From Methylomagnum ishizawai (lineage in GTDB: Bacteria; Pseudomonadota; Gammaproteobacteria; Methylococcales; Methylococcaceae): a stretch of 35,000 nt of DNA. Below are positions 5,942 through 35,000 of this stretch, in pieces; position 1 is the stretch's first letter, and each line of letters opens with the position of its first letter. Where the stretch lies: contig NZ_FXAM01000004.1 of the NCBI RefSeq assembly GCF_900155475.1, positions 1 to 35,000 on the forward strand. Direction: 5' to 3'. Position numbers and translations under genes: made by a program. The notes under the pieces were generated by a model that did no database searches, was not told the origin of the DNA, and saw only the letters and a program-made list of their open reading frames with translations.

Positions 5942-6042
5942 GTGAGAAATTCAATCCCAAAAGTGAGAAATTCAATCTGGATCGGTGAGAAATTCAATCC
6001 GAACGGTGAGAAATTCAATCCCAAAAGTGAGAAATTCAATCC
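5942..6042 (+). repeat. Origin iterons of replicon 1 (5 copies)
   Basis: Five direct copies of GTGAGAAATTCAATC start at 5942, 5963, 5985, 6006 and 6027, with a period of 21-22 bp so that all face the same side of the helix. They lie just upstream of a Rep_3-type initiator gene and are followed by a DnaA box, the usual layout of an iteron origin. Confidence 0.9.
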
Positions 6043-6055
6043 GAAGTCCACAGGG

Positions 6056-6064
6056 TTATCCACA
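6056..6064 (+). other. DnaA box (TTATCCACA)
   Basis: A perfect consensus DnaA box lies 14 bp after the last iteron of replicon 1. In iteron plasmids host DnaA cooperates with Rep at such a site. The following A+T-rich stretch to about 6110 may be the unwinding element. Confidence 0.75.
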
Positions 6065-6070
6065 GATAAA

Positions 6071-6100
6071 GTGAAAACTGGATATCAGGTTTATTTTCAC
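6071..6100. promoter_or_regulatory. Inverted repeat in the rep promoter, likely Rep operator
   Basis: GTGAAAA (6071-6077) and TTTTCAC (6094-6100) form an inverted repeat between the iterons and rep. The half-site resembles the first half of the iteron (GTGAGAAA). Rep_3-type initiators commonly repress their own promoter as dimers at such a divergent iteron pair, so autoregulation is inferred. Confidence 0.5.
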
Positions 6101-6159
6101 CTTTCAAGGTATGATCAGTCTCTACCGTGTCCGGCAATCTCCAACCCGCAGGCTTCGTC

Positions 6160-7206
6160 ATGAGTAAATCCAAAAACAACGCAAAACTATCTCCACCCGT
6201 TCCAGTGCATCCCACCGGAAGCCCCTGGGAAGCCACGCCGCACAATCCGGCTACCGTTCCCCTGGCAATGCCCGCCGTCATCGTCAACATCCAAGGTCCA
6301 TATACGGAAAGGGATAGGAAGCTCTATGCCTTCTTAGTCCACGCGGTTTGGGATGAACTAGGCGTGAAACGCATCCATGAATTGCCTGTGGCCCGCATCA
6401 ATAAAGTATTTGAGGAACACCACAGCGATACCAGCCAAGGCTGGATTTGGGAAAGCGCGAAACGCTTGGCCATGACCTCCGTTGAATGGGCACAAGTGGA
6501 AGGCGAGGACCGTCTGCACGGCATCGCGCATTTGTTTTCCTACGCCGCGACCCATGAGGCGGCCCGTGCCGATGGGGTTTTGAAATTCGAGTTCCCGGCT
6601 GGCCTGATACCCGTCTTGAAAGAACCCCGCCGCTTCGCCCGGTTGCGGATTCATTTCCTCATCGCCCTGTCCGGCAAATACGCGGTGACGCTCTACGAAA
6701 TCCTGGAATCGGTGGCGAATTTGCGGAATCCGGTTTTGGAAATCGAACTGACGAAGCTCCGGCAATGGCTGAAGGTGCCGGAAGACAAGCTTGATCGATA
6801 TGTGGATTTGAAGCGCTTCGTGCTGGAACCCGGTATCAGGCAAATCAACATGAACCCGGAAGGCGCGGGTTTCTCGGCGCAGATGGAAGCGCTCAAGAGC
6901 GGGAAAGCGGTCGAGCGCATCCGCTTCGTTATCCAGAAATTGGATACCCGCGTGGCCTTGGAAAAGCAGATCAAACCCCGCCTGGAACCGCCCGTGCCGC
7001 CGCCGGTGGAACCGATGTCCGCTTTTGGCATTTTGCTCAGCACGCGGACCTACGAGAAGGCCAAGCAGGCCGCGCCCGATTTCGATATCTACGGCCTGGA
7101 AGCGGAATGGCGGGATTGGATCAAGGGGAAGCCCCGGCCCAACGACCCGGACGCGGCCTTCGTGGGGTTCTGCCGGAAGCGGCAACGGAGGATGGAGGTG
7201 GGTTAG
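6160..7206 (+). CDS. Rep_3-family iteron replication initiator
   Basis: The 348-residue product has the two winged-helix layout of Rep_3 (Pfam PF01051) initiators. The first covers about residues 45-165. The second carries the diagnostic run SGKYAVTLYEILES, then LRQWLKVPEDKLDRYVDLKRFVLEPGIRQIN. It should bind the five iterons upstream and open the origin with DnaA. The ATG at 6160 was chosen; a GTG at 6127 in frame would add 11 residues, and neither has a strong ribosome site. The basic tail FVGFCRKRQRRMEVG is echoed in a relic at 5404-5459. No copy-number RNA is evident. Confidence 0.85.
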   Translation: MSKSKNNAKLSPPVPVHPTGSPWEATPHNPATVPLAMPAVIVNIQGPYTERDRKLYAFLVHAVWDELGVKRIHELPVARINKVFEEHHSDTSQGWIWESAKRLAMTSVEWAQVEGEDRLHGIAHLFSYAATHEAARADGVLKFEFPAGLIPVLKEPRRFARLRIHFLIALSGKYAVTLYEILESVANLRNPVLEIELTKLRQWLKVPEDKLDRYVDLKRFVLEPGIRQINMNPEGAGFSAQMEALKSGKAVERIRFVIQKLDTRVALEKQIKPRLEPPVPPPVEPMSAFGILLSTRTYEKAKQAAPDFDIYGLEAEWRDWIKGKPRPNDPDAAFVGFCRKRQRRMEVG

Positions 7207-7575
7207 CGGGTAGAACAGGCCGAGACCCAATTTATCGTTTTACAATTATTCGAAATAATAGAATCGAACAGCAAGACCGCAGCAAAACCTGTTTTAGCTC
7301 TCATGGTCTCAACAAATTATATTTTAGTGGGTTTGCAACTCCGATCTGATCGTGCAAAAATTGCGGGTCAGAGGTCGCCTTATATGGAGTTTTTAAAAAT
7401 GACGAAAAATTCCCCGCGAATTCCCATTCAGCTTTTCTTTGCTTTTGTCGTAATTTCGGTTATGGCAATGAAAAATTGATACTCAGTAAAATACAGTATA
7501 CCATCAATATTAGAAATCTCATTAAACCCGCCCAGCGGGCGACCTTTTCCATATCCGGCTAGGCGGGAAAACCTA
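7207..7575. other. A+T-rich intergenic stretch with weak parDE terminator
   Basis: I find no gene here. Base composition is far more A+T-rich than the neighbours. A short hairpin CCCGC-CCA-GCGGG at 7527-7539, with AAA on its left (U-tract when read on the minus strand), could end the parDE transcript. Confidence 0.4.
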
Positions 7576-7878
7576 TCAGAACTGCGTCGCCATCCTCCCC
7601 CGGACATCCATCCGCCCGTGCAGGACGCGGACGACCTCGATGCCGCCATCAATGGCCCGGTAGAAGATGAAATGCCTGCCGACCGGGTATTTCCGGTATC
7701 CGGGCCGGATATCACCGCAATCCTGCCCCTTGAGCGGATCGGCGGCTAAGGCGTGGAAACCCCGGTCCAACTCCGCCAGATAGCGGTTCCGCTGTTCCTT
7801 GCCCCAAGTGTCCTGGGTATAGCGGGCGATGGCTTTCAAATCCTCCTTGGCCTCGCGGGTCAGGACGAACCCACCCAT
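7576..7878 (-). CDS. parE: ParE/RelE-superfamily toxin
   Basis: The 100-residue protein has the RelE/ParE fold signature: an N-terminal LTREAKEDLKAIARYT helix pair, WGKEQRNRYLAEL, a central GYRKYPVGRHFIFYRAIDGGIEVVRVLHGRMD core strand block and a short C-terminus. ParE toxins poison DNA gyrase; that target is known for the family, not shown here. The start codon overlaps the stop of the upstream antitoxin gene by one base (TGATG), implying coupled translation. With ParD it forms a post-segregational stabilisation module beside replicon 1. Confidence 0.88.
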   Translation of the reverse strand: MGGFVLTREAKEDLKAIARYTQDTWGKEQRNRYLAELDRGFHALAADPLKGQDCGDIRPGYRKYPVGRHFIFYRAIDGGIEVVRVLHGRMDVRGRMATQF

Positions 7879-8120
7879 CAATGGGTGCCTTCCTGGTCGA
7901 GTTCGGCAATCAACCCCTCCAGCGAATATTCCGCCCTGCCGCTGGCTTCCCCATCGGCCAAGGCCCGGCGCAACAGGGACAGCCGGGTTTCGTGTTCCTC
8001 CAACAGCCGCAGCCCGGCGCGGACGACCTCGCTGGCCGAACCATAGCGCCCGTCGCCGACCTGGCTGGCGATGAATTGCTCGAAGTGCGTGCCCAGGGTC
8101 ACGCTGGTGTTTTTCTGCAT
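7878..8120 (-). CDS. parD: ParD-family antitoxin (ribbon-helix-helix)
   Basis: The 80-residue protein begins MQKNTSVTLGTHFEQFIASQVGDG and continues with YGSASEVVRAGLRLLEEHE, the canonical ParD/CopG ribbon-helix-helix that binds the operator as a dimer. The C-terminal half (LLRRALADGEASG...) is the disordered toxin-wrapping arm. It precedes parE with a one-base overlap. The inverted repeat at 8145-8169 immediately upstream is the likely operator. The ATG at 8120 fits the family's usual length. Confidence 0.88.
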   Translation of the reverse strand: MQKNTSVTLGTHFEQFIASQVGDGRYGSASEVVRAGLRLLEEHETRLSLLRRALADGEASGRAEYSLEGLIAELDQEGTH

Positions 8121-8265: not shown

Positions 8266-10182
<1,917 letters not shown>

Positions 10183-10400: not shown

Positions 10401-10702
10401 GACCCGTCAGCTATACCTACCGAAACGGCCTAAAAACGACCCCTAAAACACCCCAAAACGGTTGTTTTAAACCACCCCCAAACGTGACCCGTCAGCTATA
10501 CCTACCGAAAATCGGCCGACCCGTCAGCTATACCTACCGAAAAAATCGCGACCCGTCAGCTATACCTACCGAAAACCCCCTCGACCCGTCAGCTATACCT
10601 ACCGGCCGACCCCCCCCGAAAAACGACCTGTCAGCTATACCTACCGCGACCCGTCAGCTATACCTACCGAAAAATGCCTCGACCCGTCAGCTATACCTAC
10701 CG
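10401..10702 (+). repeat. Origin iterons of replicon 2 (8 copies of 22 bp)
   Basis: Eight direct copies with core GTCAGCTATACCTACCG start at 10401, 10486, 10518, 10550, 10583, 10625, 10648 and 10681. All are identical over 22 bp except the sixth, which has T for C at position 5. Spacers are 1-63 bp. The last copy overlaps the stop codon of the minus-strand rep gene (10697-10699). The A+T-rich tract at about 10285-10370 beside the array is a candidate unwinding region. Confidence 0.92.
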
Positions 10703-11797
10703 AAAATCGGGGTCCGTGGCGGACTTATCCACAGGTTTATCCACAGCCTGTTGTGACACATCGATAGCATTTTTATGACGCTTATTGGCGGTCTTCATCT
10801 CCCCCACGAACTCCATGGAGGCGCTGAGCGTGTAGACCACGTCCTCGATCCTGCCGCGGGCGCTGCGGATTTCGTTTTTCTTGACCAGCATCAACACCCC
10901 GCTGGCCTTCAACTCCGCGAAGGCCGCGTCCACCGCCGCCACCGCCTGCCGCTGCTGGCCGTAGCCGTCCAGCAGGGCGCTGTCGCGGCGGATGGTGCTG
11001 TAGCGCATCTCGAAGGACGTGGCGAGGCTGGCGAAGGTGAACTTGAGCGAGAGCTGTTTATGCAGCCAGCGGGCAAGCTGGGTGCGGTGGCCCATCATCT
11101 GGGCGTAGTTGAACTGCCTGTAGGTCACGGCGTCGATGGCCTCGGTGACCAAAGGATGGAACTGCACGATCCATTTCGACTGCGGATCGTCTTCCAGCTT
11201 GTCCCTGGACACCGCCGATATGCCGGGGAAATAGGCGCTGCGGGCGAAGAACTTGGGGGAGTCGCCGTCGGTGGCGCGGAGTTCGATGATGCTCCCGGAG
11301 AGGATGTTGAGGCTCAGCACGATCTCTTGGTAGGATCGGGCATGCCCCTGCTTCCTCAATTCCTCGCGCAGCGCGTACAGGGTGAACACCACCCCGCTGC
11401 GCTGGTTCTTCCGGTCGAAGAAGGCGTTGCGCTGCTCGGCGGCGATCTTGCGCAGGGCGTCCTCGACCAGTTCCTCGTTGGCGCTGGGGTAGTAGTCGGT
11501 CTCGGTGCGGGTCTTGTCGTCGAGGATGCGGGCGGCCTGGATGCGGGCTTCCAGCGTGCGCCCCCGGTATTGGAAAACGACCTGCCTGATCCCCAGGAAG
11601 CCCTTTTCCTTGCGTATCTTGGCCATCTGCTGCCGGGAGATGGCGTAGCGCGGCACGCTGTCCCACAGGTCGAAGGTGTTGGAAAGCCGGTCGCGCTCGG
11701 CCGGGCCGTTGCAGAGGAAGGCGCGGAACAGGTCGATCTGCCCGCCCTCGAAGTCGGTGTCGGCCGGTGGCACCAGGGGCGCGGGCTGGGCGCTCAT
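10697..11797 (-). CDS. Iteron-type plasmid replication initiator, family not named
   Basis: The 366-residue protein carries features of plasmid initiators: NTFDLWDSVPRYAISRQQMAKIRKEKG near the N-terminus, YYPSANEELVEDALRKIA, a predicted winged helix around FTLYALREELRKQG...SYQEIVLSLNILSGSIIEL, and a second around QLARWLHKQLSLKFTFA...YSTIRRDSAL...AVAAVDAAFAELKASGVLML. I do not match it confidently to Rep_3, TrfA or RepL. Its function rests on the adjoining iterons and DnaA boxes, which overlap its 3' end. ATG at 11797 overlaps the stop of the upstream 90-aa gene (ATGA). It probably binds the 22-bp iterons and recruits the host helicase. Confidence 0.75.
   Translation of the reverse strand: MSAQPAPLVPPADTDFEGGQIDLFRAFLCNGPAERDRLSNTFDLWDSVPRYAISRQQMAKIRKEKGFLGIRQVVFQYRGRTLEARIQAARILDDKTRTETDYYPSANEELVEDALRKIAAEQRNAFFDRKNQRSGVVFTLYALREELRKQGHARSYQEIVLSLNILSGSIIELRATDGDSPKFFARSAYFPGISAVSRDKLEDDPQSKWIVQFHPLVTEAIDAVTYRQFNYAQMMGHRTQLARWLHKQLSLKFTFASLATSFEMRYSTIRRDSALLDGYGQQRQAVAAVDAAFAELKASGVLMLVKKNEIRSARGRIEDVVYTLSASMEFVGEMKTANKRHKNAIDVSQQAVDKPVDKSATDPDFR
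10725..10745 (+). other. Two DnaA boxes inside the 3' end of rep
   Basis: TTATCCACA occurs at 10725-10733 and 10737-10745, 12 bp apart. On the minus strand these bases are codons for VDKPVDK near the end of the replication protein, so the boxes are embedded in coding sequence. Confidence 0.8.
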
Positions 11798-12066
11798 GGG
11801 ATGGATTGCCCGACCGTGGCCGGCCTCCGCGCCGCCAGCGGCCCGCCGTACCCGCTCCCGAACTTCACCCGCACCGAATCCTCCACCACCTCGAAATCCG
11901 CCAGGAACCCCGCGTCCTTCAACGCCGTGTGGGCCTTGATCAGCGCGTCGCGGTTGCGCTTGCCGTTCTTGGCCTCCAGGCCGATCAGGCCGGCCAGGAT
12001 GTCGAGCTGGTGCGGACCGGGCGCGGCATGGGTCGAGTAATAGGCGTGCAGGGCGCGGGTGGTCAT
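11794..12066 (-). CDS. Stand-alone TrfA-like C-terminal winged-helix protein
   Basis: Residues 5-70 (ALHAYYSTHAAPGPHQLDIL... then HTALKDAGFLADFEVVEDSVRVKF) align with the C-terminal winged helix of the two TrfA-like initiators in this window: WLHGYFASHREPFPVKLETI...LEALRTVGFLVSWRVEKDLVYV and WLHLWISSHAEQYPHKVETI...LDLLKDAGVITSWAIDAADLVHI. The rest of TrfA is absent. GTGAGG about eight bases before the ATG and the ATGA overlap with the rep gene downstream indicate a real, coupled gene. It may be an accessory DNA-binding subunit or copy-control factor of replicon 2, or a relic kept as a leader cistron. Confidence 0.6.
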   Translation of the reverse strand: MTTRALHAYYSTHAAPGPHQLDILAGLIGLEAKNGKRNRDALIKAHTALKDAGFLADFEVVEDSVRVKFGSGYGGPLAARRPATVGQSIP

Positions 12067-12182
12067 GGTTGGGCCTCACTGGGTGGTGTTCGTCGCACGC
12101 TCGCGCCCTAGGGAGGCGTCTTTTTCAATCGGTCGTGCGCGTTGCCGATGTTTTGCACATGTTATTGCACGACTTAAATTCA

Positions 12183-13472: not shown

Positions 13473-13500
13473 ATTTGTCATAACGCCCGTTATGCGACAT
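13473..13500 (-). other. 28-bp dif/pdif-like Xer recombination site
   Basis: On the plus strand this reads ATTTGTCATAA, a 6-bp centre CGCCCG, then TTATGCGACAT. On the minus strand the first arm ATGTCGCATAA keeps CGCATAA of the XerC half-site and the second arm TTATGACAAAT matches 9 of 11 bases of the dif XerD half-site TTATGTTAAAT. The 11-6-11 geometry is that of dif and plasmid pdif sites. It lies between a GC-rich and an AT-rich gene block, at a composition break. Confidence 0.7.
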
Positions 13501-14340: not shown

Positions 14341-14749
14341 ATGCTTTACAGACAAAGCTGTCTGTGCCAAAAATCAAGAATTTCGACACACCCCGGCAAG
14401 CCCGATAAATCAAAGGCTTGCCCGTGCCATAAATCGAGGCCAAAACACAGGGCCGCTTGCCCGGCACTTGGGCACGGCTTCCCCGTTTCCGGCAGCGCCA
14501 CCCGGTTGCAATCCACGCCACGGCCAAGCAGAATCCCGCCCCGGTGCTAGAAACACCTCGAAAAAACCAGCGGTTTGAATCGCTCCGCCGATGCGATGGC
14601 CTGCGCCTGCCGGATTTCCGATGGGCGGGAGTGTGACGGATACAAGACCTGTGAAGGGAAGAAGTCCGCCCGATCCTGGTTTTTGGGTTTCTAGCTCCCG
14701 CCCACCCCGCTAGAAACGGGGTTCCGAAATCCAAACCAGGAGCAATCCC
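14341..14749. other. Non-coding stretch with GCTAGAAAC repeats before the KilA-N gene
   Basis: No credible gene is seen. The element GCTAGAAAC occurs at 14546-14554 and 14709-14717, and its complement GTTTCTAGC at 14687-14695. The last two form a hairpin or operator with a 13-bp centre, 33 bases before the KilA-N start. The arrangement suggests a repressor site or a leader hairpin. Confidence 0.45.
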
Positions 14750-15997: not shown

Positions 15998-16015
15998 CAT
16001 CCCACATCAACCGAT

Positions 16016-16657
16016 ATGATCATCCTGATAGGCGGCGAAAAGGGCGGCACCGGCAAAACCACGCTCGCCACCACCCTGGCCGCGCTGCGGGCCTTGGCCG
16101 GGCGCGACGTGCTGCTGATCGACACCGACATCCAGGGCAGCGCCAGCGATTGGGCGCAGCAACGCGGCGACAGCGGCGCGCGGCGCGTCGCCTGCGTGCA
16201 GAAGTTCGGCAAGGGCTTGCAAGCCGAGGTGCTGGACCTGGCCGGGCGCTACCAGGATATCGTCATCGATGCCGGGGGCCGCGACTCGGTGGAACTCCGC
16301 GCCGCCCTGGTGGTGGCCGGGCGGGCCTATATCCCGGTCCAGCCCTCGCAGTTCGACCTCTGGACCCTGGACCGCATGGACGGCTTGGTGGGCGCGGCCC
16401 AGGGCTTCAACCCCGGCTTGGAAGCGCGGATGGTCCTCTGCCGCGCCTCCACCCATCCCTCGGTCGGCGACCGCCGCGACGCCACCGCGCTCATGGCCGA
16501 CTTCCCCCATCTGGCCCTGTCCCCCGCCGCCATCCACGACCGCGCCGCCTACCGCAAGGCGGCGCGGGAAGGACTGTGTGTGGAGGAACTGCGGCCCAAG
16601 GACGCCAAGGCCGCCGAGGAAACCCTAGCGCTCTACCAGGAGGCATTCCGTGAGTAA
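16016..16657 (+). CDS. parA: ParA-family partition ATPase
   Basis: The 213-residue protein is a small ParA (type Ib) ATPase. It has the deviant Walker A GEKGGTGKTTLA (7-18), Walker A' region VLLIDTDIQGSASDW and Walker B DIVIDAGGRD. It lacks an N-terminal DNA-binding extension, as expected when the partner protein does the regulation. ATG at 16016 was preferred to a GTG nine codons upstream. The partner gene starts eight bases before its stop. With the iterons and trfA downstream it makes a compact replicon. Confidence 0.88.
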   Translation: MIILIGGEKGGTGKTTLATTLAALRALAGRDVLLIDTDIQGSASDWAQQRGDSGARRVACVQKFGKGLQAEVLDLAGRYQDIVIDAGGRDSVELRAALVVAGRAYIPVQPSQFDLWTLDRMDGLVGAAQGFNPGLEARMVLCRASTHPSVGDRRDATALMADFPHLALSPAAIHDRAAYRKAAREGLCVEELRPKDAKAAEETLALYQEAFRE

Positions 16658-17144: not shown

Positions 17145-17347
17145 TTATCCACAGTTCGGGTTTAGAGTGGGGAAAACTCGGGTTTAGAGTGGGGAAAGTT
17201 ATCCACAGTTCGGGTTTAGAGTGGGGAAAACTCGGGTTTAGAGTGGGAAAAGTTATCCACAGTTCGGGTTTAGAGTGGGGAAAGTTCGGGTTTAGAGTGG
17301 GGAAAGTTCGGGTTTAGAGTGGGAGGAAGTTCGGGTTTAGAGTGGGG
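17145..17347 (+). repeat. Composite origin of replicon 3: 8 iterons with 3 interleaved DnaA boxes
   Basis: Copies of TCGGGTTTAGAGTGGG start at 17156, 17178, 17210, 17232, 17264, 17286, 17308 and 17331. DnaA boxes TTATCCACA lie at 17145, 17199 and 17253. The spacing is 22 bp between adjacent iterons and 32 bp where a DnaA box is inserted, so both fit whole helical turns. Pairs of iterons alternate with DnaA boxes in the first half. Confidence 0.93.
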
Positions 17348-17425
17348 AAAACGGATCGCGAAAAATCGCTGGAAGCCGCGCCACATAAGGCCAGCGGCGA
17401 TTTCGGCGGCAATGCGCTAACCGTA

Positions 17426-18502: not shown

Positions 18503-18563
18503 GGCGGATACCTCGCGGGGGTTTTTGCCTTCGGCCACCGCCGTGGGGGCCGGAACGGGGAGT

Positions 18564-23315: not shown

Positions 23316-24494
23316 CTATTGGCAACTGAACGTCACCCAGAGCGATTTGCCATCGACGCTCAACGCCTGGTTGCCATCCACCTGCACGGCATAAGTATCG
23401 CCCGCGTTGAAGGACGCCGCCCCGCTGGCGGTGCAAGTCCGTTGGCCGGCAGCGATGGTGCAATCCACCCCCGGCGACATGAACACGGCATCGACGCCCT
23501 TGCGTAGCGTGAAGCTGTAGTTACCCGTGGTGTTGCCGCTGAAGGCGGCCCTGAGGGTCGCCGCCGCGCAGCTTTGCGGGATGATGCGGTGGCCGTCGCT
23601 CTCCTGGGCGATGGGCAGGTTGCCATAGCCCAGCCAGGCCGTCCCGTTGCCGTTGATGTTGGTCCCGAACACGCTGTAGGTATCCGAATACAAGGCACCA
23701 CCGGCGGGCGTCGTCCATTGGGTGTTGTAGTCGGTGCCGTCGATCTTCGCCAAAACCTGTCCGGCGCTGCCGCCGGTGGGGACGCCCGGACCCGTGGCCC
23801 CGGTCGGGCCGGTGGCTCCCGTCGCTCCCGTGGCCCCGGTCGGACCCTGCGGCCCGTCCGGGCCGGTCGGGCCGGTGACCCCGGTCGCGCCGGTCGGCCC
23901 CTGCGGCCCGGCCGGACCGATCAGGGTGACATCGACGAAGGCCGCATGGCTGGTGTCGGTGTTCTCCTTGCTGTCGAGGGACACCTCCCCCACCGTCGTG
24001 GTCAACAGGATCGAACGGCCCGGATCACCGGGGTTGTCCACCCAATATTTGACAATATCGGAAACATCCACGCTGACCCATTGCGGCAGGTTGTTGATGG
24101 CGGTGGAGTCCGTGAACGGCGCGGGGAGCGCGGCGTCCGTCAGGCCGGTGTTGGCGGTGAGGGTGCCCTCCGCCCAGTCGGCGTTGGCCCTTTTCACGAC
24201 GAAGCGGGCGCTGTTGTTGGTGGAGCCGCGCACCCAGACGTGCAGCATGGCCTTGGCGATGTCCGAGCTGGCGGTACCGGCCGGAAGGAAGGTGGCCATG
24301 GATTTGAACTTGAACAGCACGGTCTTGCCGGTGCCGTTGGCCGGGAGGAGGGTGGCCGAGCCGTAGTTCACCGTGGGGTTGGCGCTGTCGGTGTAGCTGT
24401 CGGAGCGGACGGGGATTTCCACCGCCCGCGCGGCGAAGGGGGCGAGGACCGCCGTGGCGAGCGCGGCGCGGAGGAACTGCATGGATCGGGTCAT
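23316..24494 (-). CDS. Secreted collagen-like protein with DNRLRE-type N-terminal domain (copy A)
   Basis: The 392-residue protein has a signal peptide ([20 protein letters not shown]). A DNRLRE-like domain follows (about 25-195: [66 protein letters not shown]). Next are about 16 Gly-X-Y triplets ([19 protein letters not shown]...), a [23 protein letters not shown] hinge and a C-terminal beta domain ending in WVTFSCQ. Collagen-like rods usually trimerise and display the end domain at the surface. It is a tandem paralogue of the upstream gene. Confidence 0.85.
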
Positions 24495-26021
24495 CTTTCG
24501 TGTCCGGGGGTGTTTGCTGATGGATGGCTTGGCGCTTCGTCAGCCGTGGTGGGGCGGACCGCGACCCGGCGAACCCTGGCTGGCGGGTCGCGCTATCGCC
24601 CACCCACCCCATGGCAAGCCCACGTTATAAGGCCCACGGTTGCGGGAGGTTTGCGGTGGTGGGTAAGGAATATACCCACCCTGCCAGCGGCTTGGAATGG
24701 CCGGATTCCCCGCCGCAAGCGCCCGCTAAAACGGTGGACTATGGCTATTGGCAGGTCACTGTCATGTAGACCGCCACGCCGCCGCCGGTATTATGCGCTT
24801 GGGTACCCCCGGTCACGAGTATCCCCAGGCCATCCCCCGCGACGAACGAAGTATTGCTGGAAGTATTACAAGACCGGACCGAGCCGCCCCCGAAATTACT
24901 GGCGCAGGTCATTACGTCGCTATAGGTATACGAGCTTCCGGTATTGGTGGCCTTCCGCAGCTTGATGGTATAGGTATTGGAGCTGACCACGGTATTGGAG
25001 ATGGCATTCATGGAAACCTTGCTACACGGGGCGCTCAGCATCCTGAAACCGTCTTGCTCGTTGCTGGATTGCGCCTGGGTGCCCCCGATGATGGTGATGT
25101 AATGGGCGCTCAGGATGGTGCTATTGCCACTGTTGATGAGGAAATTGAATTGCTGCGGGATATCCATGGGCTTCCAATTCGAGGCGCTACTGTCGTAGGT
25201 CAGCACCTGGCCGTTGGTCGGTGCCGTGGACGCCACGGTGGTGCCCTGGAGGCTGGTGGCGTTGGAACCGCCGCCGGTCGGGGTCGTCCATTGGGTGTTG
25301 TAGTCGGTGCCGTCGATCTTCGCCAAAACCTGTCCGGCGCTGCCGCCGGTGGGGACGCCCGGACCCGTGGCCCCGGTCGGGCCGGTGGCGCCTGTCGCAC
25401 CAGTCGCGCCAGCGGCCCCGGTCGCGCCGGTCGCGCCGGTCGGACCCTGCGGCCCGGCCGGGCCGATCAGGGTGACATCGACAAAGGCCGCATGGCTGGT
25501 GTCGGTGTTCTCCTTGCTGTCGAGGGTCACCTCCCCCACCGTCGTGGTCAACAGGATCGAACGGCCCGGATCGCCGGGGTTGTCCACCCAATATTTGACA
25601 ATATCGGAAACATCCACGCTGACCCATTGCGGCAGGTTGTTGATGGCGGTGGAGTCCGTGAACGGCGCGGGGAGCGCGGCGTCGCCCAGGCCGGTGTTGG
25701 CGGTGAGGGTGCCCTCCGCCCAGTCGGCGTTGGCCCTTTTCACGACGAAGCGGGCGCTGTTGTTGGTGGAGCCGCGCACCCAGACGTGCAGCATGGCCTT
25801 GGCGATGTCCGAGCTGGCGGTACCGGCCGGAAGGAAGGTGGCCATGGATTTGAACTTGAACAGCACGGTCTTGCCGGTGCCGTTGGCCGGGAGGAGGGTG
25901 GCCGAGCCGTAGTTCACCGTGGGGTTGGCGCTGTCGGTGTAGCTGTCGGAGCGGACGGGGATTTCCACCGCCCGCGCGGCGAAGGGGGCGAGGACCGCCG
26001 TGGCGAGCGCGGCGCGGAGGA
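23710..26021 (-). repeat. Near-identical 0.75-kb direct repeat in two collagen-like genes
   Basis: The segment 23710-24475 repeats at 25283-26021. Outside the collagen triplets, only about five base changes are seen over some 550 bp. Differences concentrate in triplet number: copy B is shorter. The DNA flanking the repeats, including both C-terminal domains and both first codons, differs. Confidence 0.85.
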
Positions 26022-26043
26022 GCGGTTGTACGGGGTTGGTCAT
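24745..26043 (-). CDS. Secreted collagen-like protein with DNRLRE-type N-terminal domain (copy B)
   Basis: The 432-residue protein has the same signal peptide and DNRLRE-like domain as copy A, a shorter Gly-X-Y region, and the same [23 protein letters not shown] hinge. It then carries a second linker (TSLQGTTVASTAPTNGQVLTYDSSASNWKP) and a different C-terminal beta domain ending in VAVYMTVTCQ. AGGAAC precedes the ATG at 26043. The frame is open further upstream, but with no coding character. The common rod with an exchanged tip suggests variation of surface binding. Confidence 0.85.
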   Translation of the reverse strand: MTNPVQPLLRAALATAVLAPFAARAVEIPVRSDSYTDSANPTVNYGSATLLPANGTGKTVLFKFKSMATFLPAGTASSDIAKAMLHVWVRGSTNNSARFVVKRANADWAEGTLTANTGLGDAALPAPFTDSTAINNLPQWVSVDVSDIVKYWVDNPGDPGRSILLTTTVGEVTLDSKENTDTSHAAFVDVTLIGPAGPQGPTGATGATGAAGATGATGATGPTGATGPGVPTGGSAGQVLAKIDGTDYNTQWTTPTGGGSNATSLQGTTVASTAPTNGQVLTYDSSASNWKPMDIPQQFNFLINSGNSTILSAHYITIIGGTQAQSSNEQDGFRMLSAPCSKVSMNAISNTVVSSNTYTIKLRKATNTGSSYTYSDVMTCASNFGGGSVRSCNTSSNTSFVAGDGLGILVTGGTQAHNTGGGVAVYMTVTCQ

Positions 26044-26303
26044 CGTCGTGTTCCTAGGAGGGGTTGTTCGGCAGATAAGGTAGTTGTACAGGCCCAGGCA
26101 CGAAGAATAGCCGTCGACGGAAGATTTGTGATGGTTGGGCGACACCCGGCCCGATGCAGCCGACGGCCTGGGCGGAATCGGGGCACCGGGCCACCGGAGG
26201 GGCGTTCCGGCGGCCACGGCGTTATAGTTCGCGTCCCACCCAGCACGACGAGGAACCCCATGCCGACCGCTCCCCGCACCGCGACCACGGAGGCGCACCC
26301 CGC

Positions 26304-26783
26304 TTGAACCCGGCGCCCCCCCGCAAAGCCAAGGACCGGGCCGAGTCCCGCGATCCCCGCACCCTCGACATGTTCGACCCGCCCCCCCGGCGCGTGGCGA
26401 CGCCCCGGCCCGCCAGGGCGCGGCGCAAGCCCGGACCCGGCGCGCCGCCCCCGCCGTCACCGGAAACCGCGTCCGCCGACCCGGTCCCGGCGCTGGCGCC
26501 GGACGAGCGGGCCGAATTGGAACGCCTGCGCCTGCGGGCCGAGGAATCCGAGCGCGAATACCAGGATGGCCGGGCCTTGATCGAGTCCATCGAGGGCTAT
26601 CTGGCCGAGGAATACGCCAAATCCGAGGCGCTGGCGCGGGAGAACGAGCAACTGCGCGGCAGGTTGGGCGAATGGCTCCAGCGCACGCAGGAACTGGAAC
26701 GCGAGCGCGAGCAACTGGTGGGGATACTGATCACGCTGCTGAAGGACCGCAACCGGCAGGCGCGGAAGCAGGCGGGGTTCTGA
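26304..26783 (+). CDS. Coiled-coil protein, function unknown
   Basis: The 159-residue product has a basic, Pro-rich N-terminal third and a coiled coil from about residue 70 to 150 (ERAELERLRLRAEESEREYQDG, EEYAKSEALARENEQLRGRL, LEREREQLVGILITLLKDRNRQ). The likely start is TTG at 26304, after GGAGG; ATG at 26370 is the alternative. The TTG overlaps the stop of a 15-codon frame (26261-26307) that may act as a coupled leader. It ends 24 bases before a terminator. Confidence 0.6.
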   Translation: MNPAPPRKAKDRAESRDPRTLDMFDPPPRRVATPRPARARRKPGPGAPPPPSPETASADPVPALAPDERAELERLRLRAEESEREYQDGRALIESIEGYLAEEYAKSEALARENEQLRGRLGEWLQRTQELEREREQLVGILITLLKDRNRQARKQAGF

Positions 26784-27286: not shown

Positions 27287-27652
27287 AACGATTTCCTCTT
27301 GAAAGTCAAAAATCCAAGCTCCGGGCCACCAGGTCGCCCCGGTCTTCATCTTTCCAAAACCTGCATCCATCTGTCTATCAGATAGTTTCAGTTTTTTTCA
27401 ATGTAGTTCACTTTTTAATTTGTGCAATGGATCGCGATAAATTCCGGCTGGCTCAGGAAACCGCCGCGTCCGGGCCTTAACGCCGGACGGCGGTGGGCGC
27501 GGCGAGAGCGCGTCGGAACCCTCACAGATATAAATGATAAGGAAGGTTATCTTGGGTAATAGCTACCGTCCATCCCGCCTGGAGCGATGGACTGGGCTGG
27601 GAGTGCCGCTTTGGGCATACTGCGCCCATCGTCCACCGTCCCGAGGATATCC
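27287..27652. other. Intergenic region upstream of kfrA-like gene
   Basis: I see no gene. The half nearest the secreted protein gene is A+T-rich (27370-27420). The inverted repeat GATAA-GGAAGG-TTATC at 27536-27551 is a candidate KfrA operator; KfrA proteins repress their own promoters. Confidence 0.35.
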
Positions 27653-28609
27653 ATGGCCCGCCGCCGCCTGACCACCCTGCCCGAACGCCGTCCGCCCACC
27701 TTCGACCTGGCCCGCGACGCCTGCGAAGCCCTGTTCCGCGAAACCGGACTCACCCCCGGCACCGACGCCGTGGTCGAGCGCATCGGCGTCAACAACCGCC
27801 CGCTGGTCCGCAAGGCCATCGAGGCTTGGCTGTTGGACCTGCCCGCCCGCCTCTACCGGCGCGAGGACTTGCCCGACATACCGCCCGAACTGGCCGGGCA
27901 ATTCCGGGGCTTGTGGGAAGCGGCGGTGCAAGCGGCGGACCAGCGCTTCGCCGGGGAACGGGCCGGGCTCCAGACCGAACTCGACGCCCGCGCCGCCGGA
28001 TTGACCGAAGCCCAGGCCGCCCAGGCCGGGGCCGAGGCCCAGGCCGAAGCCGCCCGCGTCGAACTGGCCGGACAACAAGCCACCGCCGCCGCGTTGGAAG
28101 CGGAATTGGCCGGGGAACGCGAGACGGTCCGGGCCACCACCGCCCTGTTGCGCCAGGCCGAGGCCGAGGCGGCGCGGCGGGCGGCCCTGTTGGAGACCGA
28201 GCGCGGCCACGCCGCCGAGCGCATCGCCTTCCTGGAGGAGCGCATCGACAAGGACAACGCCTGGTATCTGCAACGCATCGCCGAGGAACGCGCCGACGCC
28301 CGCCAGGAAGCCGCCCGCGAATTGGCCCGCCGCGACGAGGAACTGGGGAGGTTGCGCCTGGATGCCGCCCGCCGCGATACCGAACTGCGGGCCTTGCGCG
28401 AGGAACTGGCGGGGCTGAAGGGCCGGGGCGAGGCGCAGGCGCAAGCGCTCGTCGCCGCCCAGGCCGCCTTGGAGGAAAAAACCGCCGCCCTCGCCACCCT
28501 GGCCGGGGAGGCGGCGGCCTTGCGGAGCGCCCAGGAAACGGCACCGGACGCCCCGCGCCATGCCGCCAAGCCGATCCCCAAGCGGGGCTGGGCCAAGCAG
28601 CGGCGGTGA
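27653..28609 (+). CDS. KfrA-like DNA-binding coiled-coil protein
   Basis: The 318-residue protein starts with a KfrA N-terminal DNA-binding domain (about 14-90: FDLARDACEALFRETGLTPGTDAVVERIGVNNRPLVRKAIEAWLLDL). A long Ala/Glu/Arg coiled coil follows to about residue 295. A basic tail ends it (AAKPIPKRGWAKQRR). KfrA proteins of IncP-type plasmids are self-repressing, rod-like nucleoid proteins that aid plasmid stability. GAGG precedes the ATG. Its presence supports a plasmid origin of the region. Confidence 0.82.
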   Translation: MARRRLTTLPERRPPTFDLARDACEALFRETGLTPGTDAVVERIGVNNRPLVRKAIEAWLLDLPARLYRREDLPDIPPELAGQFRGLWEAAVQAADQRFAGERAGLQTELDARAAGLTEAQAAQAGAEAQAEAARVELAGQQATAAALEAELAGERETVRATTALLRQAEAEAARRAALLETERGHAAERIAFLEERIDKDNAWYLQRIAEERADARQEAARELARRDEELGRLRLDAARRDTELRALREELAGLKGRGEAQAQALVAAQAALEEKTAALATLAGEAAALRSAQETAPDAPRHAAKPIPKRGWAKQRR

Positions 28610-30486: not shown

Positions 30487-31629
30487 ATGGCCGATGATAC
30501 CCCAAAATCCACCCCCGACCACAACCCCGAGTTGCCGCCCCAGTCCGCCGAGGAAAAAGCCGTCGCCGAGTTCCTGGAACGCCAACTGGAAGCGGAAATG
30601 CCCAACATGGCCCCCGAGATGCGGCGCCAACTCGCCCGCATGGGCGCGGCCATCCAGCGGCGCGACGCCGAGCGGGAAGCCTCCCGCGGGGCCGCGCCCG
30701 AACCCAAGGCGGCGGTCCAGGAGCCGCCCCCGCCGGCCCTGGCGGAAGTCCTGCGCTTCCTGCTCCCGTTCGGCGAGGACACCCGGCCCATCTCCAACGT
30801 CATGGCCCGGTGCGCCCTGTTCGCGCCGGTGAAGGAACGGCGGCGCTTCGACGATTACACCGTGGTGGGCCGGGTCGAGGGTTGTTTGATCGAATGGAAG
30901 GGCGAGCAACTCAACCAGGACGATCACGACACCTTCATGCAGTTGGTGCAGATGGCCCGGCACCAACCGCTGGGGACCGATGTCGTGCAGCCGGTGAACG
31001 CCATCCTGCGCGGCTTGGGCCGGCATACCCGGCAGGAGCAGCGGCGGCAGTTGTTCGAGCAGTGCGACCGCCTCATGTCGGGGGTGTTCAGGATCACGCC
31101 GGACGGCAAAGCCTCCTACGCCGGACACTTGCTGGCGGACATCGTGACGCCCCAGAACCAGCGGACCGAACCGCAGCACCGGCGTTTCCTCTCCTACCAA
31201 CTCAATGTCAAGCTCGCGCCGTTCTACGCCGACGACGCCTTCACCCTGATCGACTGGGGCGAGCGCCTCAAGATCAAGGGGCGCGGCTCCGAACTCGCCA
31301 AATGGCTGCACTTGTGGATTTCCAGCCATGCCGAGCAGTATCCGCACAAGGTGGAGACCATCCGCAGGCTATGCGGGAGCCAGGTGAAAGACCTTAAACA
31401 CTTCCGGGAGAAACTTCGGCAAGCCCTCGACCTGCTCAAAGACGCCGGGGTCATCACCTCCTGGGCTATCGACGCCGCCGATCTCGTGCATATCGACCGG
31501 ATGCCCAGCACGACGCAGCTTGAGCACATCGCCAAGAAGGCGGCAAAGGAAGATCGGCGGCGCAAAACCATGACCCATATCTCCGACCTCCTTCCCCGTC
31601 CGCCCAAGCCTAAGGGTAAGAAGGGGTAG
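30487..31629 (+). CDS. TrfA-like plasmid replication initiator (second type)
   Basis: The 380-residue protein has the TrfA plan: an acidic, Pro-rich N-terminal 85 residues, LRFLLPFGEDTRPISNVMARCALF, LIEWKGEQLNQDDHDTFMQLVQMAR and the C-terminal winged helix WLHLWISSHAEQYPHKVETIRRLCGS...LDLLKDAGVITSW. It differs widely from the trfA at 17588-18502 and has a basic tail (PPKPKGKKG). AAGGAG before the ATG fixes the start. Its stop codon abuts the first of 13 iterons, so origin and gene are fused. Confidence 0.85.
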   Translation: MADDTPKSTPDHNPELPPQSAEEKAVAEFLERQLEAEMPNMAPEMRRQLARMGAAIQRRDAEREASRGAAPEPKAAVQEPPPPALAEVLRFLLPFGEDTRPISNVMARCALFAPVKERRRFDDYTVVGRVEGCLIEWKGEQLNQDDHDTFMQLVQMARHQPLGTDVVQPVNAILRGLGRHTRQEQRRQLFEQCDRLMSGVFRITPDGKASYAGHLLADIVTPQNQRTEPQHRRFLSYQLNVKLAPFYADDAFTLIDWGERLKIKGRGSELAKWLHLWISSHAEQYPHKVETIRRLCGSQVKDLKHFREKLRQALDLLKDAGVITSWAIDAADLVHIDRMPSTTQLEHIAKKAAKEDRRRKTMTHISDLLPRPPKPKGKKG

Positions 31630-31930
31630 CGCGGCTTTTCGGCCACCGGAGCGCGGCTTTTCGGCCACCGGAGCGCGGCTTTTCGGCCACCGGAGCGCGG
31701 CTTTTCGGCCACCGGAGCACGGCTTTTCGGCGACCGAGCGCGGCTTTTCGGCGACCGAGCGCGGCTTTTCGGCGACCGGAGCGCGGCTTTTCGGCGACCG
31801 GAGCGCGGCTTTTCGGCGACCGGAGCGCGGCTTTTCGGCGACCGGAGCGCGGCTTTTCGGCGACCGGAGCGCGGCTTTTCGGCGACCGGAGCGCGGCTTT
31901 TCGGCGACCGGAGCGCGGCGAAAAGCCGAG
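31628..31930 (+). repeat. Origin iterons of replicon 4 (13 copies) with terminal inverted copy
   Basis: Thirteen direct copies with core CGGCTTTTCGG follow the rep stop codon, mostly at 22-bp period (two at 21). The first four copies read GGCCACCG and the rest GGCGACCG, so the array falls into two sequence types. It ends in an inverted half (CGGCGAAAAGCCG at 31917-31929). No spacer lies between repeats. Confidence 0.93.
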
Positions 31931-31931
31931 A

Positions 31932-32093: not shown

Positions 32094-33806
32094 ATGGCCC
32101 CGACCATGACACTCGACCCCACCGACCGCGCCCTGCTCCGGGGCTGGCTCCAAGGCTTGCCCTGGCTGGTCCTCTCCGACGTGTACCAACCCGACCAACT
32201 GCCCTCGGCAACCAAGGCCCACACCGAAACCCTGGTCGAAGCCCTGGTGGCGCGGGCGCGGCGCTCGGGCCGGGACGACCTCGCGGACCGCCTCGCGGGC
32301 GGACCGCTGGTCTCCGAGCGCTGGCAAGCCCAGGCCGACGCCGCGATAGACGCCATCCTCGAATTACCCGAACCGCGCCCCGCCCCATCCGATCCGGTGG
32401 CCCGCTGGTTTCCGGGACGCATCGAAGCGCCCTTGGCGCGGGCCGGCATCGCCACCCTGGCCGACATCGCCCAAGCCGCCGAACTGGACGGCTGGTGGCG
32501 GACCGTCCCCCGCATCGGCGAGGACGGCGCGGAAATCCTCCGCCAATTCTTCGCCCAAAGCCCCGAACTCGGCCCCCTGCCCGAGATCGTGGTCGAACCG
32601 CCGCCCGCCCCCGAGCGCCCACCCCGCACCGACGTGGCCCCGCTCGAATACTTCCGCGCCCCGGAACTGCTCTCCGGTCGCGACCGCACCAACCGCCAAC
32701 CCCCCGAACGCCAGCGCATCCAGGCCGACACCGACGCCGAGGCGGTCGGCTGCTGGCTGGCGCAATGGCCCGAGGACAGCGCCACCCGCCGCGCCTACCG
32801 CAAGGAGGCCGAGCGCTTCCTGTTATGGAGCCTCTTGGAACGCGGCAAGCCGCTGTCCGGGTTGGGCGTGGATGACGCCATCGCCTACCGCCAGTTCGTC
32901 CGCGATCCGCAGCCACGGGAACGCTGGGTCGGCCCGCTGGCGGCCCGCCGTTCGCCCGGCTGGAAACCGTTCCAGGACGGCCTGTCCGAACGCAGCGCCC
33001 AATTCGCCGAGACCGTGCTGCGGAGCCTGTGCCAATGGTTGGTGGAGGTGGGATATCTGGCCTGGAGCCCGTTCGGGGGATTGCGCCGCGCCCGCCGCTC
33101 GGAAGAAGGCATGGCCGTGGGCCGGGCGCTGTCGGAACGGGAATGGCGCTGGGTGATGGATTACTGCGCCGGGAAGCTGGCCGAGCCGGGGACGGACACG
33201 GCCTATTACCGCCACGCCCGTTTCGCGCTGCGCTTCGGCTACGCCACCGGGCTGAGGATCAGCAACCTCGCCGCCGCCACCCTGGGCGACCTGGAACGCC
33301 GCGAGGGCCGCGACGGGGCCAAATGGTGGCTCCACTGCCGGGTGAAGGGCGACAAGCCCCACAGGGTGCCGGTGACGGCCCTGCTGGGGGAATTGCGCGA
33401 GTACCTAGGGTTCCGTGGCTACGACGCGCCCCTGGAAGCCCTGGACCCCGATATCCCCCTGATCGGCAAGCGCCGCCGCACCCGCACCGGGCGCAAAACC
33501 TACCGCGAAGTGGCCTATAGCCCGGCGGGTTTGCACGACCTATTCCGTTCGCTGTTCGGGGAGGCGGGCGCGGCGCTGGAATCCACCGACCCGGTGGCGG
33601 CGGCGCGGCTGCGGGCCTCGACCGCCCATGTGCTGCGCCACACCCACGCCACCCACGCCCTGGAGCGCGGCGTGCCCATCACCGTGGCCCAGCGCAACCT
33701 GGGCCATGCCAGCCTCGCCGTCACCAGCCGCTACCTGACGGTGGACGACGACCGCCACCACGAGGAAATCGGCAAATTGCTGGACCCCGGCGCGGAACCG
33801 GCCTGA
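32094..33806 (+). CDS. Large tyrosine recombinase/phage integrase
   Basis: The 570-residue protein has an N-terminal domain of about 200 residues like the DUF3701-type extension of some proteobacterial integrases. A SAM-like arm-binding part follows (about 215-345). The catalytic domain carries R388 (TGLRIS), H512 and R515 (HVLRH), H538 (NLGHAS) and Y547 (TSRYL). All residues for strand exchange are present. It may integrate or resolve this element, for example by multimer resolution. ATG at 32094 has another in-frame ATG four codons later. Confidence 0.88.
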   Translation: MAPTMTLDPTDRALLRGWLQGLPWLVLSDVYQPDQLPSATKAHTETLVEALVARARRSGRDDLADRLAGGPLVSERWQAQADAAIDAILELPEPRPAPSDPVARWFPGRIEAPLARAGIATLADIAQAAELDGWWRTVPRIGEDGAEILRQFFAQSPELGPLPEIVVEPPPAPERPPRTDVAPLEYFRAPELLSGRDRTNRQPPERQRIQADTDAEAVGCWLAQWPEDSATRRAYRKEAERFLLWSLLERGKPLSGLGVDDAIAYRQFVRDPQPRERWVGPLAARRSPGWKPFQDGLSERSAQFAETVLRSLCQWLVEVGYLAWSPFGGLRRARRSEEGMAVGRALSEREWRWVMDYCAGKLAEPGTDTAYYRHARFALRFGYATGLRISNLAAATLGDLERREGRDGAKWWLHCRVKGDKPHRVPVTALLGELREYLGFRGYDAPLEALDPDIPLIGKRRRTRTGRKTYREVAYSPAGLHDLFRSLFGEAGAALESTDPVAAARLRASTAHVLRHTHATHALERGVPITVAQRNLGHASLAVTSRYLTVDDDRHHEEIGKLLDPGAEPA

Positions 33807-33886
33807 CCGTCACGGAGTGGTCAAATTCTTCGCAAAGGCCAGGAAGCTCTGGAAAACCGGGGGTTCCAGGCCATCGAGCCACAGAC

Positions 33887-33909
33887 TTATCCACAGAAAA
33901 TGTGGATAA
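33887..33909. other. Inverted pair of DnaA boxes
   Basis: TTATCCACA (33887-33895) and TGTGGATAA (33901-33909) form a perfect palindrome around GAAAA. It lies between the recombinase and the RepL-like gene, and may belong to the fifth replicon or to a lost one. Confidence 0.65.
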
Positions 33910-34027
33910 CCGCTTCTAAATATGCGAGCGATTGGTTGTAGCAATGCCGCCTCGACCCGCAAGCGCGGTCCAGGTATTCCGCCTGTTCCGGCGTGGGCCT
34001 GAGTTCGATCTTGTGGGCGAGGAGCAT
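33887..34027 (-). pseudogene. N-terminal relic of an IS200/IS605 tnpB
   Basis: The 46-codon frame encodes MLLAHKIELRPTPEQAEYLD followed by RACGSRRHCYNQSLAYLEA. This is the start of TnpB/OrfB helix-turn-helix domains (HKIxLxPTPEQ...ACGxxRxxYN). Full TnpB is about 400 residues, so more than 85% is missing. The frame stops within the DnaA-box palindrome, and no tnpA, right end or RuvC motifs are seen nearby. Confidence 0.7.
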
Positions 34028-34049
34028 GGCAGGGTGCGTGCCTACGGTC

Positions 34050-34211
34050 CTAGGCCACGACGCGGGGATCGGCCGCGCACTGGTTGGCGAGCCAAACCCC
34101 GGCCAGGATCAGCGGGGCCAGGATCAGGCTGCCCAGCATGACCAGGGCGGTGCTGGCGGCGGCGACCACGTTGAGGGCGAAGGGGGCGATTTGCTTGAGG
34201 AAATTGGACAT
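34050..34211 (-). CDS. 53-aa membrane protein
   Basis: The product MSNFLKQIAPFALNVVAAAS... has two hydrophobic stretches (about 9-24 and 25-43). No family is recognised and the ribosome site is weak. It is oriented like the tnpB relic. Confidence 0.4.
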   Translation of the reverse strand: MSNFLKQIAPFALNVVAAASTALVMLGSLILAPLILAGVWLANQCAADPRVVA

Positions 34212-34333
34212 GGCGGGTTCTCGGGGGAGGATGGAGGGAACGGGGATTTTAGCCGTTCCGTGGCGCTCCGGTCCCGCCCGGTCCGCGCTCCGGTCCACCG
34301 CCGCAGCCTAGAAGAGATAAGAAGAGCAACGAA

Positions 34334-34440
34334 ACCGGACCCCGCAGCAACGCTGGAAACCCGGTCTCTATTCCTGCAACCCGAAGTCTCGGGTCCGGTG
34401 ACTATGAGTCTCGTTTTTTAGTTGAATTATGAGCCTTTTT
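34334..34440. promoter_or_regulatory. Leader/operator region upstream of RepL-like gene
   Basis: ACCGGACCC (34334-34342) and GGGTCCGGT (34391-34399) form a 9-bp stem. Inside it, AACCCG and GTCTC motifs repeat. ATGAGTC and GACTCAT lie at about 34404 and 34440. The stem could be an antisense or attenuation control of rep, but no function is shown. Confidence 0.35.
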
Positions 34441-34482
34441 GACTCATCATTCCGGCCTTGAAATCTCTAAAACAGGTTGGAT

Positions 34483-35000
34483 ATGGAGAATAAGAGTCTC
34501 AAATCCAGGCGCGGATTTCCCAAATACACCGAAAATCCCAGTCTGGACCACGCGTCGGACAGCACCAAATCGGGAACCCGGCGGATCGTCAACAGAACCG
34601 GCGACCGCTGCCTGATCGTGTCCGAACACGGCGAAATCCTGGCACCGGCGGGATTCCACGAAGTCGTCGAGGTGGACCGCACCAAGTTCGTGAAGCTGTA
34701 CGTGGATGGCGTGAAAGCCTTGCAAGAGCTGAGTTCGGCGGGGGCCAAGGTTTTCGAGTTGGTTTACAGGATCGTGCAGGACAATCCCAGCGCGGACCGG
34801 TTCTATCTGCACCTCATGGATGCGGAAAAACACGGACTGAAGATTTCGCGGCCCGTGTTCCACCGTGGCTTGAGCGAGCTGATAGGGAAGGAATTCGTGT
34901 TCGAGAGCGTCATGCCGAATATCTACTTCCTCAACGTCAACTACCTGTTCAACGGCAACCGGCTGGCTTTCATCAAGGAATTCCGGCTCAAAGAGAAACG
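34483..35000 (+). CDS. RepL-like replication protein, cut by the window edge
   Basis: The frame continues past the window, giving at least 172 residues. FVKLYVDGVKALQELSSAGAKVFELVYRIVQDN, then ISRPVFHRGLSELIGKEFVFESVMPNIYFLNVNYLFNGNRLAFIKEFRL match the winged-helix initiators of the RepL family (PF05732), best known from small Firmicute plasmids. The N-terminal 45 residues are basic. An inverted DnaA-box pair lies about 575 bp upstream. No iterons are visible on this side. Confidence 0.75.
   Translation, partial: MENKSLKSRRGFPKYTENPSLDHASDSTKSGTRRIVNRTGDRCLIVSEHGEILAPAGFHEVVEVDRTKFVKLYVDGVKALQELSSAGAKVFELVYRIVQDNPSADRFYLHLMDAEKHGLKISRPVFHRGLSELIGKEFVFESVMPNIYFLNVNYLFNGNRLAFIKEFRLKEK

Follow-up and report, generated by a model that had tools for sequence, protein, structure and literature searches.

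In this study, we report that a natural, circular plasmid (about 66.4 kb) of the methanotroph Methylomagnum ishizawai carries at least six replication initiator genes belonging to four families, five of which lie within 29 kb. The window, that is, the whole stretch of 35,000 nucleotides analysed here, comprises bases 1-35000 of contig C4 (NZ_FXAM01000004.1; 78,766 bp), one of the eight contigs of a 5.48-Mb genome. The initiators of the window are designated R1 to R5, and the sixth, R6, lies elsewhere on the contig. Iteron arrays were found at five of the six initiators, and a closed sister plasmid, pRS11DPr3, carries counterparts of five of them. We consider it probable that several initiators, each with its own origin, are maintained on one kept backbone, the spare origins giving redundancy against incompatibility with co-resident plasmids.

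Initiators and origins of the circular plasmid

The first 12,336 and the last 12,346 bases of C4 agreed at 99.6% (4 mismatches, 43 gap openings), and because its ends overlap by 12.3 kb the contig is an unclosed circle. Similar end overlaps of 8-10 kb were found on four further contigs of the same genome; the C4 assembly is noisy and probably of long-read origin. The sister plasmid, from Methylomagnum ishizawai RS11D-Pr (NZ_AP019786.1), was assembled independently and is closed at 70,338 bp. The R3 and R4 TrfA proteins are each 94% identical to proteins of pRS11DPr3, which has counterparts of R1, R3, R4, R5 and R6 on a common backbone. It differs in having eight initiators instead of six, annotated as four TrfA, three Rep_3 (one named RepB) and one RepL-type 'replication protein'; two of its R4-type TrfA genes and RepB are absent from the contig, and it has no R2. 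Pfam confirmed seven of the eight, the RepL type giving no Pfam match, and a short TrfA relic below the cut-off is additionally present. The gene table of pRS11DPr3 describes itself as incomplete, so absences taken from it are weak.

Pfam profiles identified R1, R3, R4 and R6 (Table 1). R2 showed 71.5% identity to an annotated 'replication protein', spanning 76% of a frame of 460 amino acids (aa), and its search of plasmid records returned 1,291 matching records at an E value of 1e-5, many of them enterobacterial and typed conjugative. It may be of the IncA/C-type RepA kind. An upstream start for R2 (GTG, 12079) is probably too far 5', because homology sets in only at about residue 90-110 and the N-terminal ~100 residues correspond to a weak TrfA relic. 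R5 was 98% identical across 173 residues to a 202-aa 'replication protein', which is itself 50% identical to annotated RepL over 79% of its length; neither the window part of R5 nor the full sister protein matched Pfam, and the window part matched no NCBIfam model, so that R5 is assigned to the RepL type solely by this 50% identity.

Of the six initiators, R5 alone lacks iterons and has just a pair of DnaA boxes upstream. R6 is accompanied by repeats of its own and by a single exact DnaA box. The repeats of R1 to R4 are unrelated, with a best rotation identity of 0.38-0.50 against a shuffled 95% level of 0.60, and the same holds when R6 is included (0.36-0.52 for the five repeats). Each repeat was confined to its own array across the readable circle, with 4 mismatches allowed. 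Eight exact DnaA boxes were observed in the window where 0.02 were expected, a number reached by 0 of 100 shuffles; six of them are spread over three of the four arrays, as one, two and three boxes, and the other two make up the inverted pair before the RepL gene. All exact boxes lie within 600 bp of a rep gene (9/9 on the circle, 6/6 on the sister), a zone that takes up 20% of C4 and 26% of the sister and whose limit was chosen after the distances were known.

On the sister, each of the three R4-type trfA genes has its own 22-bp array, the pairwise identities of the repeats being 0.82, 0.77 and 0.59, the last of which is chance level. Between the two plasmids, the repeats of R3 and R4 are identical (1.00), those of R6 agree at 0.71-0.76, and those of R1 at 0.57, equal to chance. 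From these identities, initiators and their repeats appear to drift or to be replaced jointly.

The initial annotation, made from the letters of the window without database searches, had described five intact initiator frames, four of them with iteron arrays of different repeats and three of those arrays with DnaA boxes. The frames were confirmed by Pfam for R1, R3 and R4 and by similarity for R2 and R5, the dissimilarity of the repeats by rotation identity, and the distribution of the boxes as stated. It had also suggested searching each Rep against plasmid databases and checking the contig for circularity; relatives were found, for example matches of R2, R3 and R5 to annotated plasmid initiators, and the self-overlap yielded the circle. 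Its remark that five initiators in 29 kb is unusual proved, if anything, understated, with six on the circle and eight on the sister.

Table 1. Initiator genes, origin elements and other features of the window, with R6; positions refer to contig C4
Feature	Position	Strand	Description
R1	6160-7206	+	Rep_3 type, 348 aa; PF01051 E 6e-10 (40 bits, cut-off 22.4), PF21205 E 4e-8
R2	10697-11797	-	Methanotroph-plasmid 'replication protein' family, 366 aa; no Pfam match
R3	17588-18598	-	TrfA, 336 aa; PF07042 E 6e-50 (170 bits, cut-off 22)
R4	30487-31629	+	Divergent TrfA, 380 aa; PF07042 E 5e-12 (46 bits, cut-off 22)
R5	34483-35000	+	RepL type, by similarity to annotated proteins; 3' end beyond the window
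R6	41848-42837	-	Rep_3, outside the window; PF01051 143 bits (cut-off 22.4)
R1 array	5942-6042		21-bp repeats, ~4.8 copies; one exact DnaA box at 6056-6064
R2 array	10401-10702		8 copies of a 22-bp core, downstream of the R2 gene
R2 DnaA boxes	10725 and 10737		Two, exact, within the 3' end of R2
R3 array	17145-17352		8 copies of a 22-bp repeat, three exact DnaA boxes inside
R4 array	31628-31919		13 copies of a 22-bp repeat from the stop codon on; no DnaA box
R5 upstream pair	33887-33909		Inverted pair of exact DnaA boxes, kept on the sister; no iterons
R1 tail A	7030-7203	+	Residues 291-348, predicted three-helix domain
TrfA relic	5316-5497	+	N-terminal part; matches residues 53-124 of sister TrfA 1990 (tblastn 43% over 72 aa)
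TrfA relic, weak	11823-12079	-	Winged-helix segment, in frame upstream of R2
Partition ATPase	16007-16657	+	ParA type; Pfam CbiA/AAA_31/MipZ; sole ParA found on the circle
KfrA-type protein	27587-28609	+	Plasmid backbone protein; PF11740 E 9e-12
Tyrosine recombinase	32094-33806	+	With DUF3701; kept on the sister
28-mer	13473-13500		Near-palindromic, similar to a recombination site
sRNA-Xcc1	14623-14711	+	RNA family match, 60.5 bits (gathering score 53), adjoining a KilA-N protein gene
Glycosyl hydrolase	1258-5019	+	GH94 type
FtsH protease	8266-10173	-	Above the NCBIfam FtsH cut-off
CBM96 proteins	23316-24494 and 24745-26460	-	CBM96 domain and collagen-like repeats

Constraint and module turnover

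Selection was compared for the five initiators present on both plasmids, R2 having no sister counterpart. Between C4 and pRS11DPr3 the ratio of non-synonymous to synonymous substitution rates (dN/dS) was 0.17 for R1, 0.40 for R3, 0.21 for R4, 0.047 for the window part of R5 and 0.14 for R6, with one-sided Fisher p values of 0.005 for R3, 6e-8 for R4 and less than 1e-7, down to 2e-30, for the others. Five control genes found on both plasmids had a dS of 0.06-0.16 and a dN/dS of 0.09-0.27. By this comparison the five shared initiators evolve under constraint. Because the dS of R3, R4 and R5 (0.07-0.16) equals the control range, the constraint on these three acted within this plasmid lineage. The dS of R1 (0.75) and R6 (0.62) is ~4 to 13 times the control background, which marks these two as diverged alleles brought in separately.

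Much backbone is common to C4 and its sister, in the form of inverted and moved blocks, and one inversion ends in a rep remnant. In its downstream flank and last codons, R6 agrees with the sister's RepB 27009 locus (97% over 1,972 bp), and the remainder of the gene with its iteron region matches sister Rep 44148 (83%). The switch point lies between ~41923 and 42004, in or adjoining a tail segment common to both rep genes, and R6 is accordingly a chimeric rep. At the site of Rep 44148, C4 has a tail remnant alone, at the inversion end. The TrfA relic ahead of the R1 array also matches the paralogue at 85% over 26 aa, and in DNA at 91% over 81 bp; the sister counterpart of the weak relic next to R2 reaches 16 bits, below the TrfA cut-off.

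Six ParA-type queries, run by local tblastn, found one ParA per plasmid, and neither plasmid was matched by two relaxase queries, the readable part of C4 and pRS11DPr3 being covered in both cases. The sister's incomplete gene table has entries for TnpB and a tyrosine recombinase but for no insertion sequence (IS)-type transposase, and the contig itself was not searched for IS copies. Modules of the pdif/Xer kind known from Acinetobacter were considered and rejected, there being no supporting set of sites: the window had no match to an XerD-arm core with at most 1 mismatch, and loose pdif-like 28-mers (5 and 4 on the two circles) were scattered, with no set around the reps. The closest loose Xer-like match is the near-palindromic 28-mer of Table 1, which lies upstream of the sRNA-Xcc1 match.

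Because each plasmid has one ParA, and because of the relics, the swapped alleles and the chimeric R6, a backbone that persists while ori-rep modules are gained, duplicated, swapped and lost fits better than a stack of whole plasmids. Whole-plasmid cointegration is weakened by the single ParA per plasmid and the lack of relaxase matches, and the initial annotation's 'successive co-integrated plasmids' is, on the same grounds, not well supported. Its picture of a multireplicon element with intact genes holds; what it missed, partly because of a location outside the window, were R6 with its chimeric structure, the relics and the tails that the initiators share.

Several other genes of the window are of note. 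The FtsH protein is 97.5% identical to its sister counterpart. The two CBM96 genes align over 779 bp at 94%, and a tandem duplication is probable. Diverged DNA similar to the GH94-type gene (72-78%, in pieces) occurs elsewhere on the circle beyond the window, and no DNA matching this gene was found on the sister plasmid.

Tail segments shared between initiator families

A segment of about 50 residues, here called tail A (P-x2-D-x-Y ... W ... D-x-AF-x-G(F/W)), stands at the C-terminal end of several initiators: R1 together with its sister counterpart, two TrfA proteins of the sister, and the RepA_C initiators of pRS11DPr7 and contig C7. A second motif of 30 residues, tail B, comes after tail A in R6 and Rep 44148 and forms the C-terminus of both as well as of RepB 27009. 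A looser tail-B-like motif, spotted by eye in the translation, lies near the N-terminus of R3 (~18386-18478). Tail B was found in 26 plasmid records at E up to 1, 15 of them under initiator-named genes, 9 under hypothetical genes and 2 without a feature.

Scanning of 84,980 species genomes for the tail gave 81 confirmed loci, of which 80 were kept. Position and Pfam counts refer to all 80, and the two structure alignments to 54; the loci excluded from the alignments were chosen by hand and comprise truncated frames and a number of full-length frames, most of which nearly duplicate others. The tail A match began 45-63 residues before the end of the open frame in 80/80 loci, and Pfam assigned 71 of the proteins to RPA (PF10134), 14 to Rep_3 and 6 to TrfA (both weak), and 1 to RepA_C. 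The RPA initiators of Rhodobacterales plasmids thus have the same C-terminal tail on another initiator family, whereas in Methylomagnum it sits on TrfA, Rep_3 and RepA_C. Tail counts depend on the query, the pRS11DPr7 version matching 8 plasmid records and the TrfA version 163. Among 369 Gammaproteobacteria genomes only that of C4 itself was matched, the other Methylomagnum genome not being among the matches; since 1/369 genomes matched, tail A is not general in Gammaproteobacteria.

AlphaFold2 predicted that tail A folds into three helices following a flexible linker, with ten-residue means of the predicted local distance difference test (pLDDT) of 87-98 in R1 and 75-95 in an RPA protein. The R1 model as a whole has a mean pLDDT of 65 with a poorly predicted core, and the alignment crosses families; even so, the low-confidence core of R1 matches the winged helices of RctB and RepE. 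Foldseek matches with E up to 0.001 were, for both models, RctB, RepE and the Rep WH1 domain, i.e. the winged-helix core. Even with E values of up to 10 allowed, four versions of tail A gave no credible Pfam match, the best (E 0.002) scoring 18 bits where the cut-off is 32, and nothing better than 0.11 was found among PDB sequences. One PHROG, named 'replication initiation protein', was matched by 4/10 versions. Tail A would most likely be a replisome- or helicase-contacting module, and it may resemble helicase-loader domains. Titles and abstract openings of the literature on C-terminal domains of initiators, most subscription papers falling outside this search, yielded no description of tail A.

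In a midpoint-rooted tree of the ~60-residue tails, those of Methylomagnum TrfA, R6-type Rep_3 and RepA_C grouped with one betaproteobacterial metagenome-assembled genome (MAG; local support 0.857), and the RepA_C tail of another MAG (L045) fell outside that group. Because the Methylomagnum tails of three families group together and RepA_C of the other MAG does not, the tree points to putative exchange of tails between initiator families; R1 has a separate, RPA-like version. A further reading, which we regard as speculative and rather doubtful, is that the plasmid serves as an origin-exchange platform, on which interchangeable tails would dock the initiator to the replisome and act as recombination seams for new cores with their iterons, thereby changing incompatibility identity. 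With tail A there is a specific candidate for the means by which unrelated initiators reach one host replication machinery.

Maintenance of several origins and comparison with other plasmids

If spare origins provide redundancy, each Rep would bind its own iterons, DnaA would assist wherever an origin has boxes, and replication could start from any one of several origins. Titration or handcuffing by a co-resident plasmid would then silence one origin while the plasmid survived, because the repeats are mutually dissimilar. Modules would be exchanged by homologous recombination in shared DNA, namely the leader segments of trfA paralogues, the iterons and the C-terminal tail segments. As to which origins fire and why all are kept, redundancy against incompatibility appears the most likely reason on sequence grounds. 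A source of such pressure may be present in the same genome: the 359-kb contig C2 has an R2 homologue at 71%, and 5/9 of its iteron-like copies differ from the R2 repeat at one of 22 positions. Co-residence of C2 could thus supply the incompatibility pressure, a point that is suggestive only.

Several observations weigh against this explanation. The main caution is that an intact rep frame can be inactive, to judge by FIB of F, which has an intact frame and yet is defective owing to a poor ribosome site, and can be activated in trans (PMC11983097). Plasmids of other species have near-R2 iterons too, and the copies on C2 may reflect family inheritance. On the sister, there may be mutual interference among the paralogous trfA origins. 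In the terminal overlap of C4, the second copy of R2 has 7 gap positions and no continuous frame, and, R2 having no orthologue on the sister, its apparent intactness is read from one copy and from its relatives. The constraint on R1 and R6 may partly be older than their capture and have acted on other plasmids, and their repeats match the sister at only 0.57 and 0.71-0.76, against 1.00 for R3 and R4. Finally, the plasmid lineage is known from two genomes.

The strongest rival, still an unlikely one, is passive debris, with one working origin and the other reps as captured leftovers of successive cointegrations that have not yet decayed. The circle does hold relics of two TrfA genes and one Rep_3 tail, and the number of reps differs between the plasmids (6 against 8); the three reps with background dS, however, have a dN/dS of 0.05-0.40 and not of ~1 as debris would, DnaA boxes are retained, as are identical repeats for R3 and R4, and the single ParA and the unmatched relaxase queries speak against repeated cointegration. 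Rather improbable is that the additional rep-iteron units persist chiefly for incompatibility or regulation, i.e. as repressors or decoys excluding rivals, and not as working origins. Rep proteins of iteron plasmids act at their own iterons and promoters, and the R2 iterons nearly match those of the R2-type gene on C2. Decoys would need just the iterons, though, and here complete initiator genes are constrained as well; R2 and the C2 gene, moreover, coexist in one assembly, so that exclusion is not absolute. Less probable again are specialised origins, each serving a host, growth phase or copy-number state: the initiators differ in family, and DnaA boxes are present at some origins and absent from that of R4, but no feature ties any origin to a condition, and the three related trfA origins of the sister argue for redundancy. 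Fusion of separate plasmids by misassembly, which the initial annotation had named as one way to refute its reading and which the noisy contig (43 gap openings in the 12.3-kb self-overlap) might suggest, is virtually excluded for the shared initiators, since the contig overlaps itself and the independently closed sister from another strain has the backbone blocks and 5/6 initiators, R2 being placed by C4 itself.

Other plasmids were surveyed as well. The two larger plasmids of RS11D-Pr had no Rep_3 or TrfA profile match and one full R2-type gene each, the second with a short fragment in addition; on one of them, pRS11DPr1 (274 kb), amoCAB-annotated monooxygenase genes lie ~3 kb from the R2-type initiator. 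Among the four smaller plasmids, annotation names two initiators on pRS11DPr5, one on pRS11DPr7 and none on pRS11DPr4 and pRS11DPr6. The two of pRS11DPr5 (35 kb) are different Rep_3 initiators in close proximity, at 4611-7365. The record CP157007.1 (Methylomonas sp. AM2-LC; 133,659 bp) has three R2-type initiators, two with equal score and identity, and either other methanotroph plasmids may hoard reps too or this is a repeat artefact. Within 38 genomes of the family, many of them fragmented assemblies, no contig outside the two Methylomagnum had more than one TrfA or more than one Rep_3 match. R3 matched 626 places in 604 of 72,556 plasmid records, pRS11DPr3 alone accounting for four. Among viral contigs, no further relatives of R2 and R4 were confirmed. 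Among 5.39 million open-licence papers, most subscription papers lying outside the search, neither pRS11DPr3 nor pRS11DPr1 is named.

The reason for which plasmids retain several origins has long been debated, for the most part on IncF plasmids with two or three replicons. The two Methylomagnum plasmids form a series for testing origin gain, use and loss: they carry six and eight initiators, of which five are shared and constrained, along with relics, swaps and diverged duplicates. The view that a spare replicon is free to diverge is already published (PMC7105883).

Plasmids of Acinetobacter resemble C4 in having several reps of different groups on one molecule. They differ in number, with at most three Rep genes (p3ABSDF) in the A. 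baumannii collection (PMC7315799), compared with four families on C4, where no pdif-like set around the reps was found. The IncF-type plasmids of Enterobacteriaceae likewise combine several replicons of different type. Two surveys give maxima of seven typed replicons, on a 446-kb plasmid in COMPASS (PMC7105883), and of five replicons (PMC12689464), as against 6 initiators in 66 kb and 8 in 70 kb here. Initiators per kilobase are thus ~six to seven times those of the seven-replicon plasmid, a comparison that is not like for like, as the surveys count typed replicons only. The typing listing of the sister gives no replicon type, and surveys built on such typing would therefore not count it; plasmids of this kind may be undercounted outside clinical bacteria. 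Multireplicon plasmids are already known, and the eight initiators of the sister exceed both survey maxima in number.

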